Assembly (NCBI RefSeq): GCF_003337555.1 | Contig: NZ_QPJK01000003.1 | Location: forward strand, 302,115-366,114 | Origin: Pseudorhodoferax soli | GTDB lineage: Bacteria; Pseudomonadota; Gammaproteobacteria; Burkholderiales; Burkholderiaceae_C | Reading direction: 5' to 3' | Length of the DNA: 64,000 bases | Part shown: positions 33,702 to 42,480 of the stretch, piece by piece | How the letters are laid out: every line of letters begins with the position of its first letter | How positions within the stretch are numbered: position 1 is the first letter of the stretch | Notes under the pieces: model-generated | The model's database searches: none | Told to the model about the DNA's origin: nothing | What the model saw: the letters and a program-made list of their open reading frames with translations, nothing else | Position numbers and translations under genes: made by a program

Positions 33702-34264
33702 AGGTGGATTCCTTTGGCCGTCAGGGCGCGACTCAGGCTGGCGACGGCGCGCGAGCAATGGGTTTTGACACTCCCTTCGGAGCAGCCCATGGCAGCAGCC
33801 GTCTCTGCGACGTCCATCTCCTCCCAGTAACGCAGCAAAAATGCCTCGCGTTGACGTCCCGGCAGCCTCTGGATCTCGGTTTCGATCTCCCGCAGGATCT
33901 GTGCCCGGCGCGTCGTGTCTTCCGCGCTCTCGTGTCCCTCCCTGCCATCCTGGGGCGCCAGGGCCTCCAACAGGTCGAAATCGCCGTCTTCGCCAGCCGA
34001 CTCGAAGTCGCTGAGGTTGGAAAACAGTGCATTGCGCGTCTTCTGCCGACGGAACCAGTCCAGCGTGCAGTTGGACAGGATGCGCTGGAACAGCAGCGGC
34101 AGTTCGGCGGGCGGCTTGTCGCCGTAGTGCTCGGCGAGCTTCATCATGCTGTCCTGCACGATGTCCAGCGCCGATTCCTCATTGCGCACGTGGTACAGGC
34201 AGCGCTTGAATGCGCGTTTCTCTATACCTTTGAGGAAGTCGGACAGTTCTTTGTCGGTGGCCAA
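33698..34264 (-). CDS. ECF-type RNA polymerase sigma factor
   Basis: A 188-residue sigma-70-family protein with sigma region 2 (ALDIVQDSMMKLAEHYGDKP, LFQRILSNCTLDWFRRQKTR) and region 4 helix-turn-helix (LPGRQREAFLLRYWEEMDVAETAAAMGCSEGSVKTHCSRAV). An acidic insert separates the two regions. It would direct transcription of a stress or envelope regulon. No ATG is available; TTG at 34264 matches the usual MATDKELSDFL start of Burkholderiales homologues, and another TTG at 34318 would add 18 residues. It leads a tightly overlapped operon with DUF3619, DUF3106, RDD and LOG genes and is divergent from ilvI. Confidence 0.87.
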   Translation of the reverse strand: MATDKELSDFLKGIEKRAFKRCLYHVRNEESALDIVQDSMMKLAEHYGDKPPAELPLLFQRILSNCTLDWFRRQKTRNALFSNLSDFESAGEDGDFDLLEALAPQDGREGHESAEDTTRRAQILREIETEIQRLPGRQREAFLLRYWEEMDVAETAAAMGCSEGSVKTHCSRAVASLSRALTAKGIHL

Positions 34265-34513
34265 GACGACTGCGGTGAGGCTGCGCGCTCGCAGGTAGGG
34301 CACCGCGAGGAAAGCCAAAGATTATGGCATCGATGCCGGATGGTTCGAAAAATCGTTGATAATCCGGCCGCTCGTCAAAAAAGCAAACGGGTCACGATCC
34401 GGCGCTGCAAGCATCTCGCCCATGGTCCTGGCCTTAAGTCCTGATGCCTCTCCACAAGAGGGTGCGAAGGGGCACCCAAGGTATTTCGTCAGAGAAATTC
34501 GCAAAGGTTGATC

Positions 34514-36301
34514 ATGGAAATCTCCAAAGCCGAAATCAAATCGGCAGCTGCTGCATCCTCCCCCCTCGCGCAATCCGGTCCCCAGGAATTGATGGGCGCC
34601 GAGATCCTCGTGAAGTCCCTGCAGGCCGAGAACGTCAAGCACATCTGGGGATATCCCGGCGGTGCGGTGCTCTACATCTACGACGCGTTCTACAAGCAGG
34701 ACACCATCCAGCACGTGCTGGTGCGCCACGAGCAGGCTGCCGTGCACGCTGCCGACGGCTATGCGCGCGCCACGGGCGACGTGGGCGTCGCACTGGTGAC
34801 CTCCGGTCCCGGCGTCACCAATGCCGTGACCGGCATCGCCACGGCCTACATGGACAGCATCCCGATGGTGATCATCACCGGGCAGGTGCCGACGCCGGCG
34901 ATCGGCCTCGATGCCTTCCAGGAATGCGACACCGTGGGCATCACGCGCCCCATCGTCAAGCACAACTTCCTAGTGAAGGATGTGCGCGACCTGGCCATGA
35001 CGGTCAAGAAGGCCTTCCACATCGCGCGCACCGGCCGGCCAGGCCCGGTCGTGGTCGACATCCCCAAGGATGTCTCCTTCAAGAAGGCGCTGTACAGCGG
35101 TTACCCCGAGACCGTGGAAATGCGCTCGTACAACCCGGTGCGCAAGGGCCACGGAGGCCAGATCCGCAAGGCCTTGCAGCTGCTGCTGACGGCCAAGCGC
35201 CCCTACATCTACACCGGTGGCGGCGTGCTGCTGAGCAACGCCACCAATGAGTTGCGCACGCTGGTGGACATGCTCGGCTACCCGGTCACGAACACGCTGA
35301 TGGGTTTGGGTGCCTATCCTGCGTCGGACCGCAAGTTCCTGGGCATGCTGGGGATGCACGGCACGCTGGAAGCCAACAACGCGATGCAGAACTGCGACGT
35401 GCTGCTGGCCGTCGGCGCGCGCTTCGACGACCGCGTGATCGGCAACCCCAAGCACTTCGCGCAGAACGAACGCAAGATCATCCACATCGACATCGACCCG
35501 TCGAGCATCTCCAAGCGCGTGCGCGTGGACATCCCCATCGTCGGCGATGTCAAGGACGTGCTGACAGAGCTGATCGCGATGATCCGCGAGTCCGAGATCA
35601 AGCCCGACGGTGGCGCGCTGGCCAACTGGTGGGAACAGATCGAGGTCTGGCGCAAGCGCGACTGCCTCAAGTACAGCCGTGGCGCCGGCGACGTGATCAA
35701 GCCCCAGTACGTCATCGAGACGCTGTGGAACATGACCAAGGACGTGGAGACCTACGTCACCTCCGACGTCGGCCAGCACCAGATGTGGGCCGCGCAGTAC
35801 TACCGCTTCGACGAGCCGCGCCGCTGGATCAATTCCGGCGGCCTGGGCACCATGGGCGTAGGCATCCCCTACGCCATGGGCATCAAGCTGGCCAAGCCCG
35901 AAGCCGAGGTGTTCTGCGTCACCGGCGAAGGCTCGGTGCAGATGTGCATCCAGGAACTCTCCACCTGCCTGCAGTACAACACGCCGATCAAGATCCTTTC
36001 GCTCAACAACCGCTACCTGGGCATGGTGCGGCAATGGCAAGAGGTCGAGTACGCCGGCCGCTACAGCAGCAGCTACATGGACGCGCTGCCCGACTTCGTG
36101 AAGCTGGCCGAGGCCTATGGCCACGTCGGCATGCTGATCGAGCGCCCGCAGGACGTGGAGCCGGCGCTGCGCGAAGCCCGCAAGCTCAAGGACCGCACGG
36201 TGTTCATGGACTTCCGTACCGATCCGACGGAGAACGTGTTCCCCATGGTCCAGGCCGGCAAGGGCATCACCGAGATGCTGCTGGGCTCCGAAGACCTGTA
36301 A
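34514..36301 (+). CDS. ilvI: Acetolactate synthase large (catalytic) subunit
   Basis: A 595-residue ThDP- and FAD-dependent enzyme catalysing the first common step of valine, leucine and isoleucine synthesis. Visible features: the ThDP-activating glutamate in VLVRHEQAAVHAADGYARA, the FAD-domain segment VGARFDDRVIGNP, and the ThDP-binding segment beginning at VTGEGSVQM and continuing through NNRYLGMVRQWQ. A 25-residue N-terminal extension precedes the conserved MGAEILVKSL. The ATG at 34514 follows AAAGG. It leads the ilvI-ilvH-ilvC series; the small subunit gene follows after a GC-rich hairpin. Confidence 0.95.
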   Translation: MEISKAEIKSAAAASSPLAQSGPQELMGAEILVKSLQAENVKHIWGYPGGAVLYIYDAFYKQDTIQHVLVRHEQAAVHAADGYARATGDVGVALVTSGPGVTNAVTGIATAYMDSIPMVIITGQVPTPAIGLDAFQECDTVGITRPIVKHNFLVKDVRDLAMTVKKAFHIARTGRPGPVVVDIPKDVSFKKALYSGYPETVEMRSYNPVRKGHGGQIRKALQLLLTAKRPYIYTGGGVLLSNATNELRTLVDMLGYPVTNTLMGLGAYPASDRKFLGMLGMHGTLEANNAMQNCDVLLAVGARFDDRVIGNPKHFAQNERKIIHIDIDPSSISKRVRVDIPIVGDVKDVLTELIAMIRESEIKPDGGALANWWEQIEVWRKRDCLKYSRGAGDVIKPQYVIETLWNMTKDVETYVTSDVGQHQMWAAQYYRFDEPRRWINSGGLGTMGVGIPYAMGIKLAKPEAEVFCVTGEGSVQMCIQELSTCLQYNTPIKILSLNNRYLGMVRQWQEVEYAGRYSSSYMDALPDFVKLAEAYGHVGMLIERPQDVEPALREARKLKDRTVFMDFRTDPTENVFPMVQAGKGITEMLLGSEDL

Positions 36302-36338: not shown

Positions 36339-36416
36339 CAACGACGAATCTATTGCCCGCCGAGTCCGCGCATTACCGTGCGCGGGGGAGGGCGGCGAAA
36401 AGAGGAATCTGCATCC

Positions 36417-38180: not shown

Positions 38181-38996
38181 ATGCATGATGGCAACGAATC
38201 CGCACTGATCGTCCAGGACGAGCCGACGCCGCGCAAGCGGCGCAAAGGCATCTACATCCTGCCGAATCTGTTCACGCTGGCAGCCTTGTTCGGCGGTTTC
38301 TACGCCGTCGTGATGGCCATGAACAACCGGTTCGACCTCGCGGCGGTTGGCGTGTTCTGTGCCATGGTGCTGGACAGCCTGGACGGCCGCGTGGCCCGCA
38401 TGACCAACACCCAGAGCGCCTTCGGCGAGCAAATGGATTCGCTGTCGGACATGGTGTCCTTCGGTGCTGCGCCGGCGTTGATCGCCTACGAGTGGACGCT
38501 GCGCGAAGCCGGCCGCTGGGGCTGGATCGCGGCCTTCGTCTACTGCGCCTGCGCCGCGCTGCGGCTGGCACGCTTCAACGTCAACACGGGCGTGGTCGAC
38601 AAGCGCTGGTTCCAGGGCCTGCCTTCGCCGGCCGCCGCGGCCCTGGTCACGGGCTTCATCTGGCTCATGACCGAGCTCGAGGTGGCGCGCGCCGACGTGA
38701 CCTGGTTCATGTTCGCGCTGGCGCTGTATTCGGGCCTGACCATGGTGACCAATGTGCCGTTCTACAGTTTCAAGGACGTGCAGATGAAGAAGAGCGTGCC
38801 CTTCGTCGTGATCGTGCTGATCGCGCTGGGCATCGCCATCGTCAACATCCATCCGCCCATCGTCATGTTCGGCCTGTTCGTGGTGTACGGCTTCAGTGGC
38901 TATGCCGTCTACGCCTGGCGCAAGGCCAAGGGCCACCAGACCAGCGTGATCAGCACCTCGACCGACGAGCCGGACGAACGCGGCCTGCACAAATGA
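38181..38996 (+). CDS. pssA: CDP-diacylglycerol-serine O-phosphatidyltransferase
   Basis: A 271-residue integral membrane enzyme making phosphatidylserine, the precursor of phosphatidylethanolamine. The CDP-alcohol phosphatidyltransferase signature D-G-x2-A-R-x8-G-x3-D-x3-D is exact (D68, G69, A72, R73, G82, D86, D90). About seven to eight helices follow or flank it. The start at 38181 gives a short charged N-terminus before the first helix. ilvC-pssA-leuA linkage is typical for Burkholderiales. Confidence 0.93.
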   Translation: MHDGNESALIVQDEPTPRKRRKGIYILPNLFTLAALFGGFYAVVMAMNNRFDLAAVGVFCAMVLDSLDGRVARMTNTQSAFGEQMDSLSDMVSFGAAPALIAYEWTLREAGRWGWIAAFVYCACAALRLARFNVNTGVVDKRWFQGLPSPAAAALVTGFIWLMTELEVARADVTWFMFALALYSGLTMVTNVPFYSFKDVQMKKSVPFVVIVLIALGIAIVNIHPPIVMFGLFVVYGFSGYAVYAWRKAKGHQTSVISTSTDEPDERGLHK

Positions 38997-39031
38997 GACA
39001 GTTGCTTGCAAAGCGCGCCGCGCGTCTGTGC

Positions 39032-39037
39032 TAGAGT
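39032..39037 (+). promoter_or_regulatory. Candidate -10 box of the leucine attenuator transcript
   Basis: TAGAGT lies seven bases before the ATG of the leader peptide, so transcription could begin at or beside that ATG. A TTGCAA (39006-39011) upstream is a possible but widely spaced -35 (20 bases). Low confidence without a mapped transcript end. Confidence 0.35.
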
Positions 39038-39044
39038 CCGCGCC

Positions 39045-39098
39045 ATGCAGAATTTCGCGCTAGCCCTACTAATCAACCCCTACGGGCGGAGACGGTAG
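39045..39098 (+). CDS. Leucine leader peptide (attenuation sensor)
   Basis: A 17-codon open frame encoding MQNFALALLINPYGRRR. Three of its codons are CTA leucine (39060-39062, 39066-39071, the last two adjacent), a codon rare in GC-rich DNA like this. There is no Shine-Dalgarno sequence before the ATG. It stops at 39098, 21 bases before a strong terminator hairpin, and leads into a 2-isopropylmalate synthase gene. Low charged tRNA-Leu would stall a ribosome on the CTA codons. Too short for standard gene calling. Confidence 0.8.
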   Translation: MQNFALALLINPYGRRR

Positions 39099-39129
39099 CG
39101 CGCGCGCAACTTTTGTCGAAACGGCCCGT
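39082..39129 (+). promoter_or_regulatory. Candidate antiterminator pairing
   Basis: ACGGGC (39082-39087), inside the end of the leader peptide frame, is complementary to GCCCGT (39124-39129), which is part of the 5' arm of the terminator. The two structures exclude each other. A ribosome finishing the peptide would cover 39082-39087 and let the terminator form. Confidence 0.6.
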
Positions 39130-39159
39130 TTGCACCAGCAACGGGCCGTTTTTCTTTTT
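39120..39159 (+). terminator. Attenuator terminator before the first 2-isopropylmalate synthase gene
   Basis: AACGGCCCGTT (39120-39130) and AACGGGCCGTT (39140-39150) form an 11-pair stem with a nine-base loop, followed by a T tract interrupted by one C (39149-39159). It lies wholly within the untranslated leader, 38 bases before the gene's ATG. Confidence 0.9.
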
Positions 39160-39197
39160 GGGTTTGCTGGTGTTGTTGACCACTCTCGAGGATCCGC

Positions 39198-40910
39198 ATG
39201 ATGTTGAAGAACCCCGCCAGCAAGTACGCCGCCTTTCAACCGGTGCGCCTCTCGGACCGCGCCTGGCCCGACGCCCAGATCACCCAGGCGCCGATTTGGC
39301 TGTCCACCGACCTGCGCGATGGCAACCAGGCATTGATCGAGCCCATGGACGGCGCGCGCAAGCTGCAGATGTTCCAGGCGCTGGTGAAGATTGGCTTCAA
39401 GGAGATCGAGGTCGGTTTCCCCTCCGCGTCGCAGACCGAGTTCGACTTCGTGCGCAAGCTCATCGAGGAGGACCTGATTCCAGAGGACGTCACGATCCAG
39501 GTGCTGACCCAGGCCCGCGAGCACTTGATCGAACGCACCTTCGAATCGTTGCAAGGCGCCAAGCGCGCCATCGTGCACCTGTACAACGCCTGTGCGCCCA
39601 TCATGCGCCGCGTGGTGCTGGGCATGGACGAAGATGGCATCGTCGCACTCGCCACCTCGCAGGCCCGCATGTTCCAGGATCTGGCCGCGCGCCAGCCCGG
39701 AACGCAGTGGACCTTCCAGTACTCGCCCGAGATGTTCTCCGGCACCGAACTCGCCTTCTCCAAGCGCGTCGTCGATGCCGTGACCGAGGTCTGGCAGCCC
39801 ACGCCGGAGCGCAAGTGCATCATCAACCTGCCTTCCACGGTGGAGCACTCCACACCCAACATCTTCGCGGACATGATCGAGTGGATGCACCGCAACCTGG
39901 CGCGCCGCGACGCCATCGTGCTGTCCGTGCACCCGCACAACGACCGCGGCACCGGCACGGCAGCTGCTGAATTTGCGGTGATGGCCGGTGCCGACCGCCT
40001 TGAAGGTTGCCTCTTCGGCAACGGCGAGCGCACCGGCAACCTGGACATCGTCAACGTGGCGCTGAACCTCTACACCCAAGGCGTGCCGCCGCAGCTCGAC
40101 TTCTCCGAGATCGACGAGATCCGCCGCGTCGTCGAGCACTGCAACCAGTTGCCCGTGCACCCGCGCCATCCCTACGTTGGCGACCTGGTCTACACCTCGT
40201 TCTCGGGCTCGCACCAGGACGCGATCAAGAAGGTGTTCTCGGCGCGCAAGGAAGGCGACATCTGGAACGTGCCTTACCTGCCGATCGACCCCAAGGACCT
40301 CGGCCGCACTTACGAGGCGGTGATCCGTGTGAACAGCCAATCCGGCAAGGGCGGCATCTCCTACCTGCTCGAGAGCGAGTTCGGCCTGGAGTTGCCGCGC
40401 CGCCTGCAGATCGAGTTCAGCCAGGTGGTGCAGGGCGTCATGGACGCCGAAGGCAAGGAGTTGACCGCGCACGACCTGTGGACGCTGTTCGAGAAGGAGT
40501 ACGGCCTGCACGATGTGGCGGCACCCCAGCACCGCCTCACCGAGCAACGCGGTGCCGGTGAGACGACCGAGGTCGAACTCTTGGCCGACCTCGTCTTCGC
40601 CGGCCAGCCGGTGCAGATCCAGGGCCGCGGCACCGGTCCCATCGACGCCTTCGTCGACGGCCTGCAGCAAGCCACCGGCCGCAGTGTGCGCGTGATGGAT
40701 TACCACGAGCACGCCATCGGTGCCGGCGCCAACGCCAAGGCCGTGGCCTACCTCGAACTGCGCGTGGACGACGGCCGCACGCTGTTCGGCGTGGGCATCG
40801 ACGCGAACATCGTGTCCGCCTCGCTCAAGGCCATCGTGTCCGGCCTGCAGCGCGGCACGCGTGCGGAGGACAATGCCCCGGCGGAGCTGGACGCCGCCAC
40901 GGCACGCTGA
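39198..40910 (+). CDS. leuA: 2-isopropylmalate synthase, LeuA2 (long) type
   Basis: A 570-residue enzyme condensing acetyl-CoA with 2-oxoisovalerate, the committed step of leucine synthesis. This is the long form seen in yeast and actinobacteria. It starts with an extra N-terminal region ([18 protein letters not shown]), then the HMGL-like TIM barrel ([11 protein letters not shown]; metal histidines in [10 protein letters not shown]), and a C-terminal LeuA allosteric domain ([14 protein letters not shown]). It lies directly behind the leucine attenuator, so it is probably the isoform made on demand. A second, short-form synthase follows 31 bases later. Confidence 0.93.
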
Positions 40911-40941: not shown

Positions 40942-42480
40942 ATGAGCGACCAACTGATCATTTTCGACACCACCTTGCGCGACGGCGAGCAATCGCCGGG
41001 CGCCTCGATGACGCGCGACGAGAAGCTGCGCATCGCACGCCAGCTGGAGCGGCTCAAGGTCGACGTGATCGAGGCCGGTTTCGCGGCCAGCTCCAACGGG
41101 GACTTCGAGTGCGTGCAGGCGATTGCACGGGCGGTGCGCGAGTCGACCATCTGTTCGCTCTCGCGCGCCAACGACCGCGACATCTCGCGGTCGGCCGAAG
41201 CCCTCAAGGATGCGGCCCGGGCGCGCATCCACGTCTTCATCGCCACCTCGGCGCTGCACATGGAGAAGAAGCTGCGCATGACGCCCGACCAGGTGTTCGA
41301 GCAGGCGCGCCAGTCGGTGCGCTTTGCGCGCAACCTCGTCGGCGACATCGAGTTCAGCCCCGAGGATGGCTACCGCAGCGACCCCGACTTCCTGTGCCGC
41401 GTGATCGAAGAGGTGATCAAGGAGGGCGCAACCACGATCAACGTGCCCGACACCGTGGGCTACGCCATCCCCGAGCTGTACGGCAACTTCATCCTCGACC
41501 TGCGCCAGCGCATCCCGAACAGCGACAAGGCCATCTGGTCCGTGCACTGCCACAACGACCTGGGCATGGCCGTGGCCAATTCGCTGGCCGGCGTGAAGAT
41601 CGGCGGGGCCCGGCAGGTGGAGTGCACCATCAACGGCCTGGGCGAGCGCGCCGGCAACTGCTCGCTCGAAGAAATCGTGATGGCCGTGAAGACCCGCAGG
41701 GACTACTTCGGCCTGGACGTGAACATCGCCACCGAGCACATCGTGCCGGCCAGCCGCATGGTCAGCCAGACCACCGGCTTCGTGGTGCAGCCCAACAAGG
41801 CCGTGGTCGGCGCCAACGCGTTCGCCCACGCCTCGGGCATCCACCAGGACGGCGTGCTGAAGGCGCGGGACACCTACGAGATCATGCGCGCCGAGGACGT
41901 GGGCTGGAGCGCCAACAAGATCGTGCTGGGCAAGCTGTCGGGCCGCAACGCCTTCAAGCAGCGCCTGCAGGATCTCGGCGTGCAGCTGGAGAGCGAGACC
42001 GACATCAACGCCGCATTCCTGCGCTTCAAGGACCTGGCCGACCGCAAGAGCGACATCTTCGACGAGGACATCCTGGCCCTGGTGAGCGAGGAGAGCGTTG
42101 CGCATGAGCAGGAACAGTACGCCTTCGTCTCGCTCAAGCAGCACAGCGAGACCGGCGAGCGGCCGCAGGCCGAAGTGGTGTTCACGTCCCAGGGCCAGGA
42201 GGTGCGCGGCACCTCCGACGGCAATGGCCCGGTCGATGCCTCGCTCAAGGCCATCGAGTCGCATGTCAAGAGCGGCGCCGAGATGGTGCTGTACTCGGTC
42301 AACGCCATCAGCGGCTCGACCGAGAGCCAGGGCGAAGTCACGGTGCGGCTGCAGAACAGCGGCCGGGTGGTCAACGGCGTGGGCGCCGATCCCGACATCG
42401 TCGTGGCGTCCGCCAAGGCCTACCTGTCGGCGCTGAACAAGCTGCACAGCAAGGCCGAACGCGTCGCCGCCCAGGGCTGA
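40942..42480 (+). CDS. leuA: 2-isopropylmalate synthase, LeuA1 (classical proteobacterial) type
   Basis: A 512-residue synthase of the E. coli type: [16 protein letters not shown] at the start of the barrel, metal ligands in [14 protein letters not shown], the [13 protein letters not shown] segment, and a C-terminal leucine-binding regulatory domain ([14 protein letters not shown]). The start follows AAGGAG at good spacing. It catalyses the same step as the preceding gene although the two proteins are only distantly related. A citramalate synthase role cannot be excluded for either from sequence alone. A strong terminator follows. Confidence 0.93.

Follow-up and report, generated by a model that had tools for sequence, protein, structure and literature searches.

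A putative ribosome-mediated leucine attenuator with an additional conserved pairing upstream of leuA2 in Pseudorhodoferax soli and its relatives

What is the function of the short segment that lies between pssA and the 2-isopropylmalate synthase gene leuA2 in Pseudorhodoferax soli? The segment is part of a 64,000 nt stretch of contig NZ_QPJK01000003.1 (assembly GCF_003337555.1, positions 302,115 to 366,114), termed here the window, and all positions given below are those of the window. An initial annotation, made from the letters of the DNA, had proposed a leucine attenuator at this site. Sequence comparison now indicates that positions 39029-39159 very probably form a transcription attenuator of the ribosome-mediated type, which responds to charged leucine tRNA and governs the leuA2-leuA operon. 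The evidence consists of the parts of the element, their conservation in related genomes, an enrichment of CTA codons in the leader, and the covariation of a further pairing, termed 4:5, that connects the loop of the terminator with a segment past the T tract.

The proposed mechanism involves five segments of the leader (Table 1). Transcription would begin at or next to the leader ATG. When leucine is scarce, a ribosome would stall on the CTA codons and disrupt the pairing of regions 1 and 2 (1:2); the freed region 2 (ACGGGC) would then capture the 5' arm of the terminator, and RNA polymerase would read on. When leucine is ample, the ribosome would reach the TAG stop codon and cover region 2, the terminator would form, and an RNA of about 113 nt would be released. 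Without translation, region 2 would be held by region 1 and the terminator would also form. In read-through mRNA, region 5 would pair with the terminator loop and the inner part of its 3' arm. Stalling and readthrough are steps that we infer from the arrangement of these parts.

Leader reading frame, control codons and promoter

The window contains the 17-codon open reading frame (ORF) with three CTA codons that had been annotated initially; it runs from 39045 to 39098 and has the sequence MQNFALALLINPYGRRR. A short ORF with control codons for the amino acid whose synthesis is regulated is one of the parts that define an attenuator. Related loci were picked by similarity of the LeuA2 protein alone, as the best 80 of 581 matches (the closest named one is from Pseudorhodoferax sp. 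Leaf265, at 97%), and upstream DNA is available for 79 of them. All 79 have, upstream of leuA2, an ORF of 11-26 codons that includes CTA and three or more leucines, as against 10 of 727 control windows drawn from the same loci, and chance is therefore excluded. When two or more CTA codons and an extended -10 element 6-10 nt away are required in addition, the count is 76 of 79 compared with none of the 727 controls.

The leader is also detected beyond these loci: a covariance model built from 66 leaders gives matches in 175 of 200 genomes, and in 112 of 126 genera, of the family to which the window belongs (E <= 1e-6). This family is large, and the element is apparently its leucine switch. From the model's matches listed, 80 held-out loci were picked by hand and not at random. 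Two sequences were left out of the alignment: L073, which has no upstream DNA, and L099, whose match begins at residue 49 with no terminator before it. Later counts omit L076, L228 and L236, in which the gene start is not recognised by the pattern used. Among 73 held-out rows that were compared, two have 93% identity or more with a training row across the first 70 bases; these were retained.

All 156 leaders have at least one CTA codon, and 146 have two or more. CTA accounts for 356 of the 683 leucine codons of these leaders and for 4 of 3715 in 80 leuA2 genes (545 codons from the match start at each locus, L099 included, which overruns the gene end). The rule by which leader ORFs were selected favours CTA and biases the leader counts in that direction; the comparison of 79/79 with 10/727 serves as the control. 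The initial annotation had called CTA the rarest leucine codon. It is rare, but it is one of the two rarest and not clearly the rarest: TTA makes up 9 of the 3715 leucine codons in the leuA2 genes, and six genes of the window contain one CTA and no TTA among 197. As all 39 leaders with a TGA stop retain CTA, the codon is not present merely for pairing with a TAG stop.

In 153 of 156 rows an extended -10 promoter element, TGnTAnnnT, ends 6-10 nt (mostly 7) upstream of the leader ATG; in shuffled upstream DNA the mean is 2.4 and the maximum 6 of 156 (100 rounds). No good -35 element was seen before the leader. A strict consensus scan listed neither a promoter nor a terminator at the leader; it admits loops of up to 8 only and so passes over the 9-nt loop found here. 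Pairing with the anti-Shine-Dalgarno sequence at -6 kcal/mol or better occurs at none of 156 leader starts, at 46 of 156 gene starts and in 7 of 156 shuffled gene upstream regions. At -4 kcal/mol the respective numbers are 3, 99 and 19 (156 each).

The spacing of the -10 element and the missing Shine-Dalgarno sequence fit a leaderless leader. They suggest that transcription probably starts at the leader ATG or no more than about three bases from it, a start site predicted from sequence. With such a start, only transcripts of this promoter should offer a well-translated leader. Transcripts that enter from the ilv-pssA side should initiate the leader inefficiently and should terminate. If the leaderless start is correct, this would be ribosome-mediated attenuation without a leader Shine-Dalgarno sequence, and leucine sensing would be tied to one promoter.

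Terminator and competing pairings

By its sequence, an intrinsic terminator lies between the leader ORF and the structural gene, as described at the outset. Its hairpin is perfect, with 11 pairs (39120-39130 / 39140-39150) and a 9-nt loop, and is followed by TTTTTCTTTTT. In the alignment, 92.9% of cells are paired in this helix (3:4), and six of its 11 pairs are invariant. The complementarity of ACGGGC at 39082-39087 to GCCCGT at 39124-39129, also part of the initial annotation, has been located at the same positions, and 95.0% of cells are paired in this predicted antiterminator (2:3; 78 distinct rows). The initial annotation named a lack of conservation of the peptide or of both pairings in relatives as grounds for refutation, and comparison with relatives does not refute it. 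Both pairings are conserved, as are the CTA codons, across the family, but the antiterminator hardly covaries because its strands hardly vary; it is supported by conservation and hardly by covariation.

The CGGG of region 2 is read in different phases by different leaders (91, 43 and 4 of 156), and the C-terminal end of the peptide depends on the phase (GRRR vs PRVR) while the RNA motif stays constant. That CGGG is kept across reading phases speaks for selection at the level of the RNA over selection at the level of the peptide.

RNA folding is consistent with the proposed switch. The fold of the leader is better than that of all 200 dinucleotide shuffles (z -4.96), and in the minimum free energy (MFE) structure the CTA run is paired with the region of the stop codon. 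In naked nascent RNA, the probability that region 2 is held upstream exceeds 0.5 in 100 of 146 rows. Stalled ribosomes were represented by an edge set 12 nt past the first A-site base. With the ribosome at the last CTA, the 5' arm of the terminator is predicted to be bound (median pairing 0.82; 95 of 150 rows have P > 0.7); with the ribosome at the stop codon it is predicted to be largely free (median 0.21; 1 of 150 rows has P > 0.7). These values agree with the earlier supposition that a ribosome at the CTA codons frees the antiterminator and that one at the stop covers region 2. By folding, the antiterminator and the terminator exclude each other, and the antiterminator would become available with a ribosome on the control codons, not with one at the stop.

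A pairing beyond the T tract and alternative readings

Neither the missing leader Shine-Dalgarno sequence nor the 4:5 pairing was noticed in the initial annotation. Over 78 distinct rows, 78.8% of cells are paired in the 4:5 helix, and double changes occur in 8 of its 10 pairs (66 cells). The covariation of 0.240 compares with 0.117 for shuffled alignments and is reached by none of 500 shuffles; when the partner is slid by 1-3 columns, pairing is at most 51% and covariation at most 0.095. Among the three helices counted, 4:5 covaries by far the most.

Tests that do not depend on the alignment point to the same pairing. Shuffles for region 5 preserve base composition, not dinucleotides. At <=2/200 shuffles, 59 of 79 rows are significant. 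With duplicates merged for the region 5 and gene-context counts (156 rows reduced to 152), significance at <=3/300, where about 1 row is expected, is reached by 51 of the 76 distinct training rows and by 29 of the 76 distinct held-out ones, and at <=15/300, where about 4 are expected, by 61 and 46 of 76, respectively; 10 training and 25 held-out rows (76 each) lie above 30/300. The model by which the held-out loci were found ends about 10 nt past the terminator stem, and region 5 is outside it. A row's own partner beats the mean of the partners from other rows in 81% of the 152 rows. Ordinary terminator-like sites at the same loci give 2 of 182 by the strict threshold and 7 of 182 by the loose one, and one of the two is an attenuator missed by the filter. 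In six loci, L185, L207, L213, L217, L222 and L225, the CTA codons and the terminator are kept with no significant 4:5 pairing; all six leaders stand before leuA.

As region 5 is transcribed after the termination point, it should act on read-through RNA only and not on termination itself. The reading put forward here, tentatively and with somewhat less than even confidence, is a five-segment attenuator in which region 5 would bind the loop of the terminator once RNA polymerase has read through, either in a pseudoknot or in an alternative hairpin, and add a second layer of control at translation or mRNA stability; alternatively, the loop of the released leader RNA might bind region 5 in trans. 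Our best guess is that region 5 blocks re-formation of the terminator stem or caps it as a pseudoknot, just 5' of the ribosome-binding site. The pairing offers a testable case of an attenuator leader that would still work after readthrough. A hairpin of region 5 as a second terminator was considered and rejected: at least four T residues in the following 7 bases are present in only 10 of 80 significant rows.

A related reading, compatible with the attenuator, is that 4:5 forms specifically an H-type pseudoknot atop the terminator stem in full-length mRNA and limits translation or stability of the leuA2 mRNA at ample leucine, which would be a second layer of control after transcription. It is possible, if on the whole doubtful. 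In 68 of 80 significant rows the end of the helix lies no more than one base from the GGGCC core; 12-16 nt separate the core from region 5 in 56 of 80, and 22-31 nt separate the end of region 5 from the gene in 65 of 80. The helix takes up no more than the uppermost two or three pairs of the terminator stem, and at those pairs the terminator partner is often G-U, with the region 5 partner co-changing. This geometry, however, fits an alternative hairpin equally well. It is decidedly unlikely that region 5 masks the translation start of leuA2 by a 5:6 pairing from which 4:5 would free it. Region 5 pairs with the PASK codons of leuA2 at -17.9 kcal/mol in the window (synonymous-shuffle p 0.05, in-gene p 0.27), and several Variovorax rows form such hairpins (z about -2.2 to -3.2), but over all rows the pairing does not outdo synonymous shuffles (median p 0.55, with 4 of 79 rows at p <= 0.05), the mean folding z is merely -0.52, and region 5 persists in part of the rows before leuA (12 of 45 at <=3/300). 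As a general mechanism, start masking is unsupported by folding, by synonymous shuffles and by in-gene windows.

An inverted repeat of 8-10 bp near a promoter could be the DNA operator of a transcription factor, a very improbable explanation here: a constant sequence would be expected of an operator, whereas both arms change yet stay complementary (44 distinct helices among the 80 significant rows), and the spacing varies. Action of the leader peptide itself, or of the released leader RNA in trans, is unlikely; the terminated RNA would be a small RNA with a leaderless ORF, for which peTrpL and rnTrpL of the Sinorhizobium meliloti trp leader are a precedent in the part of the account consulted (PMC7298713), but the phase-dependent end of the peptide next to a constant RNA motif argues for RNA over peptide selection. 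That the site is no more than a terminator for transcripts of pssA upstream, with an ORF next to it by chance, is scarcely credible. The gene pssA does end at 38996 on the same strand; the conservation of the ORF, the -10 element and the CTA codons refutes this explanation.

Returning to the attenuator as a whole, several observations weigh against it or against parts of it. Double changes in the antiterminator are limited to one of six pairs, in 3 cells, and CGGG is missing after the last CTA in 18 of 156 leaders. The segment left by a stalled ribosome is only slightly more stable than its shuffles (z averages -0.86, and 20 of 150 rows have z <= -2), and naked RNA favours 2:3 in 29 of 146 rows. 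In equilibrium folding the terminator prevails (median P 1.00) whether the RNA is naked or carries a stalled ribosome, and the switch must therefore be kinetic; a kinetic mechanism is accepted for such attenuators. The leader has no match in 25 of the 200 family genomes, under filters that lose weak matches, and 35 of 152 rows show a weak 4:5 or none (>30/300), 20 of them with leuA as the next gene. An antiterminator helix longer than GGGC was also sought and rejected: 9 of 129 rows reach <=10/200, about 7 being expected, and a row's own partner beats mismatched ones in 49% only.

Gene context, distribution and known systems

The order of genes at the locus is ilvB, ilvN, ilvC, pssA, leader, leuA2, leuA; ilvN and ilvC are named from their reading frames and not by a family search. 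The genes leuA2 and leuA probably share an operon, and a leuA signature is found within 900 nt behind leuA2 in 65 of 80 related loci. Two consecutive ATG codons (39198-39203) open leuA2, the second of which (39201) is the aligned start in many relatives. The initial annotation assigned the leader to a LeuA2-type enzyme. That gene does follow here, but the leader is not specific to it: among 76 distinct held-out rows the next gene is leuA2 in 31 and canonical leuA in 45. The attenuator therefore goes with the first step of leucine synthesis, irrespective of which synthase comes first.

Table 1. Positions of the predicted leader elements and of the genes that follow them in the window
Feature	Position	Strand	Basis
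Extended -10 promoter element TGCTAGAGT	39029..39037	+	TGnTAnnnT conserved 6-10 nt 5' of leader ATG
Leader peptide ORF, 17 codons, ATG ... TAG, without Shine-Dalgarno sequence	39045..39098	+	Sequence; conserved in relatives
Control codons CTA (39060-39062, 39066-39068, 39069-39071)	39060..39071	+	Sequence; CTA enrichment
Region 1, pairs with 39084-39098 in naked RNA (CTACT:GGTAG, CCC:GGG)	39066..39079	+	MFE structure
Region 2, antiterminator strand ACGGGC	39082..39087	+	Complementary to GCCCGT 39124-39129
Region 3, terminator 5' arm AACGGCCCGTT	39120..39130	+	Hairpin sequence and conservation
Partner of region 5, loop and first two bases of 3' arm, GCACCAGCAA	39132..39141	+	Covariation with 39164-39173
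Region 4, terminator 3' arm AACGGGCCGTT	39140..39150	+	Pairs with region 3
T tract of intrinsic terminator	39149..39159	+	Sequence
Region 5, TTGCTGGTGT, between T tract and leuA2 ribosome-binding site	39164..39173	+	Covariation, shuffle tests
Likely Shine-Dalgarno sequence of leuA2, GAGGA	39188..39192	+	Sequence
leuA2, 2-isopropylmalate synthase, PRK03739 / leuA_yeast type	39198..40910	+	NF002991 889.7 bits, TIGR00970 776.6 bits
leuA, canonical 2-isopropylmalate synthase, 31 nt 3' of leuA2	40942..42480	+	NF002087 898.5 bits

Upstream of ilvB (34050-34514) no obvious leader peptide was seen by eye, an inspection with no test run. Between ilvB and the next ilv gene, positions 36343-36410 match the Rfam ilvH RNA (RF02993, 92.6 bits).

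The genome of P. soli has a single strong match to the leader model (115.7 bits); the next, at 23.4 bits, lies where another gene ends, next to a plain terminator. A scan of the order gave matches in 96 of 399 genomes at E <= 0.01, and the weaker ones inspected (L123-L136) are mostly ordinary terminators. Matches at E <= 1e-16 come from 11 of 12 listed genomes of the window's family, its own included, and from four genomes of one other family. One weak match in a different family of the Burkholderiales, L123 (minus strand, 1501-1632), has the look of a phenylalanine leader, MTRRFFFFFYFPCLLADGTG, with a terminator behind it. Another, L124 (1501-1633), has GGGCGGAGAAAGGGTAGCGC before the terminator, which resembles the antiterminator end of the leucine leader. 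The leader of L096, on a contig labelled Methylotenera, is nearly identical to that of the Roseateles contig L091, and the bin is probably mislabelled or contaminated.

At gathering thresholds, Rfam lists only the ilvH RNA in the window and no leucine leader. Positions 38980-39260 searched at E <= 5 give three weak matches, the best being Thr_leader at 22.2 bits (cutoff 55), and again no leucine leader. Among the papers listed by a literature search, none describes a betaproteobacterial leuA leader peptide; an earlier report may exist. A survey of proteobacterial attenuators by Vitreschak and co-workers from 2004 may contain related sites.

The leu attenuator of enterobacteria (leuL) has a leader with leucine codons and mutually exclusive 1:2, 2:3 and 3:4 pairings, and controls 2-isopropylmalate synthase. 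The leader of P. soli shares these three traits. It differs from leuL, as that system is generally described, in that it lacks a leader Shine-Dalgarno sequence, precedes a betaproteobacterial leuA2 or leuA, and has an extra pairing past the T tract.

Leucine leaders are also known from a different phylum. In actinobacteria, the LEU element consists of a leader ORF with a leucine run before leuA, and the portion of the report consulted proposes a conserved pseudoknot (PMC1262725). As far as that portion goes, the present leader differs in that it uses a terminator switch, and its extra pairing links the terminator loop to a downstream segment. The leuA gene of Corynebacterium glutamicum has a presumed leader with four consecutive leucine codons, according to the part of the source consulted (PMC4046766); it belongs to a different phylum and is likened to the present leader by its leucine codons, not by structure. 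The trpL leader of S. meliloti, in the section of the account consulted, has its ORF at the 5' end of the transcript and yields a terminated leader RNA (PMC7298713). It concerns tryptophan where the present leader concerns leucine, and that section describes no pairing like that of region 5. Leaderless leader ORFs, and leucine leaders before leuA in actinobacteria, are thus already known; what is new in P. soli and its relatives is the predicted 4:5 pairing, conserved beyond the classical design of an attenuator.
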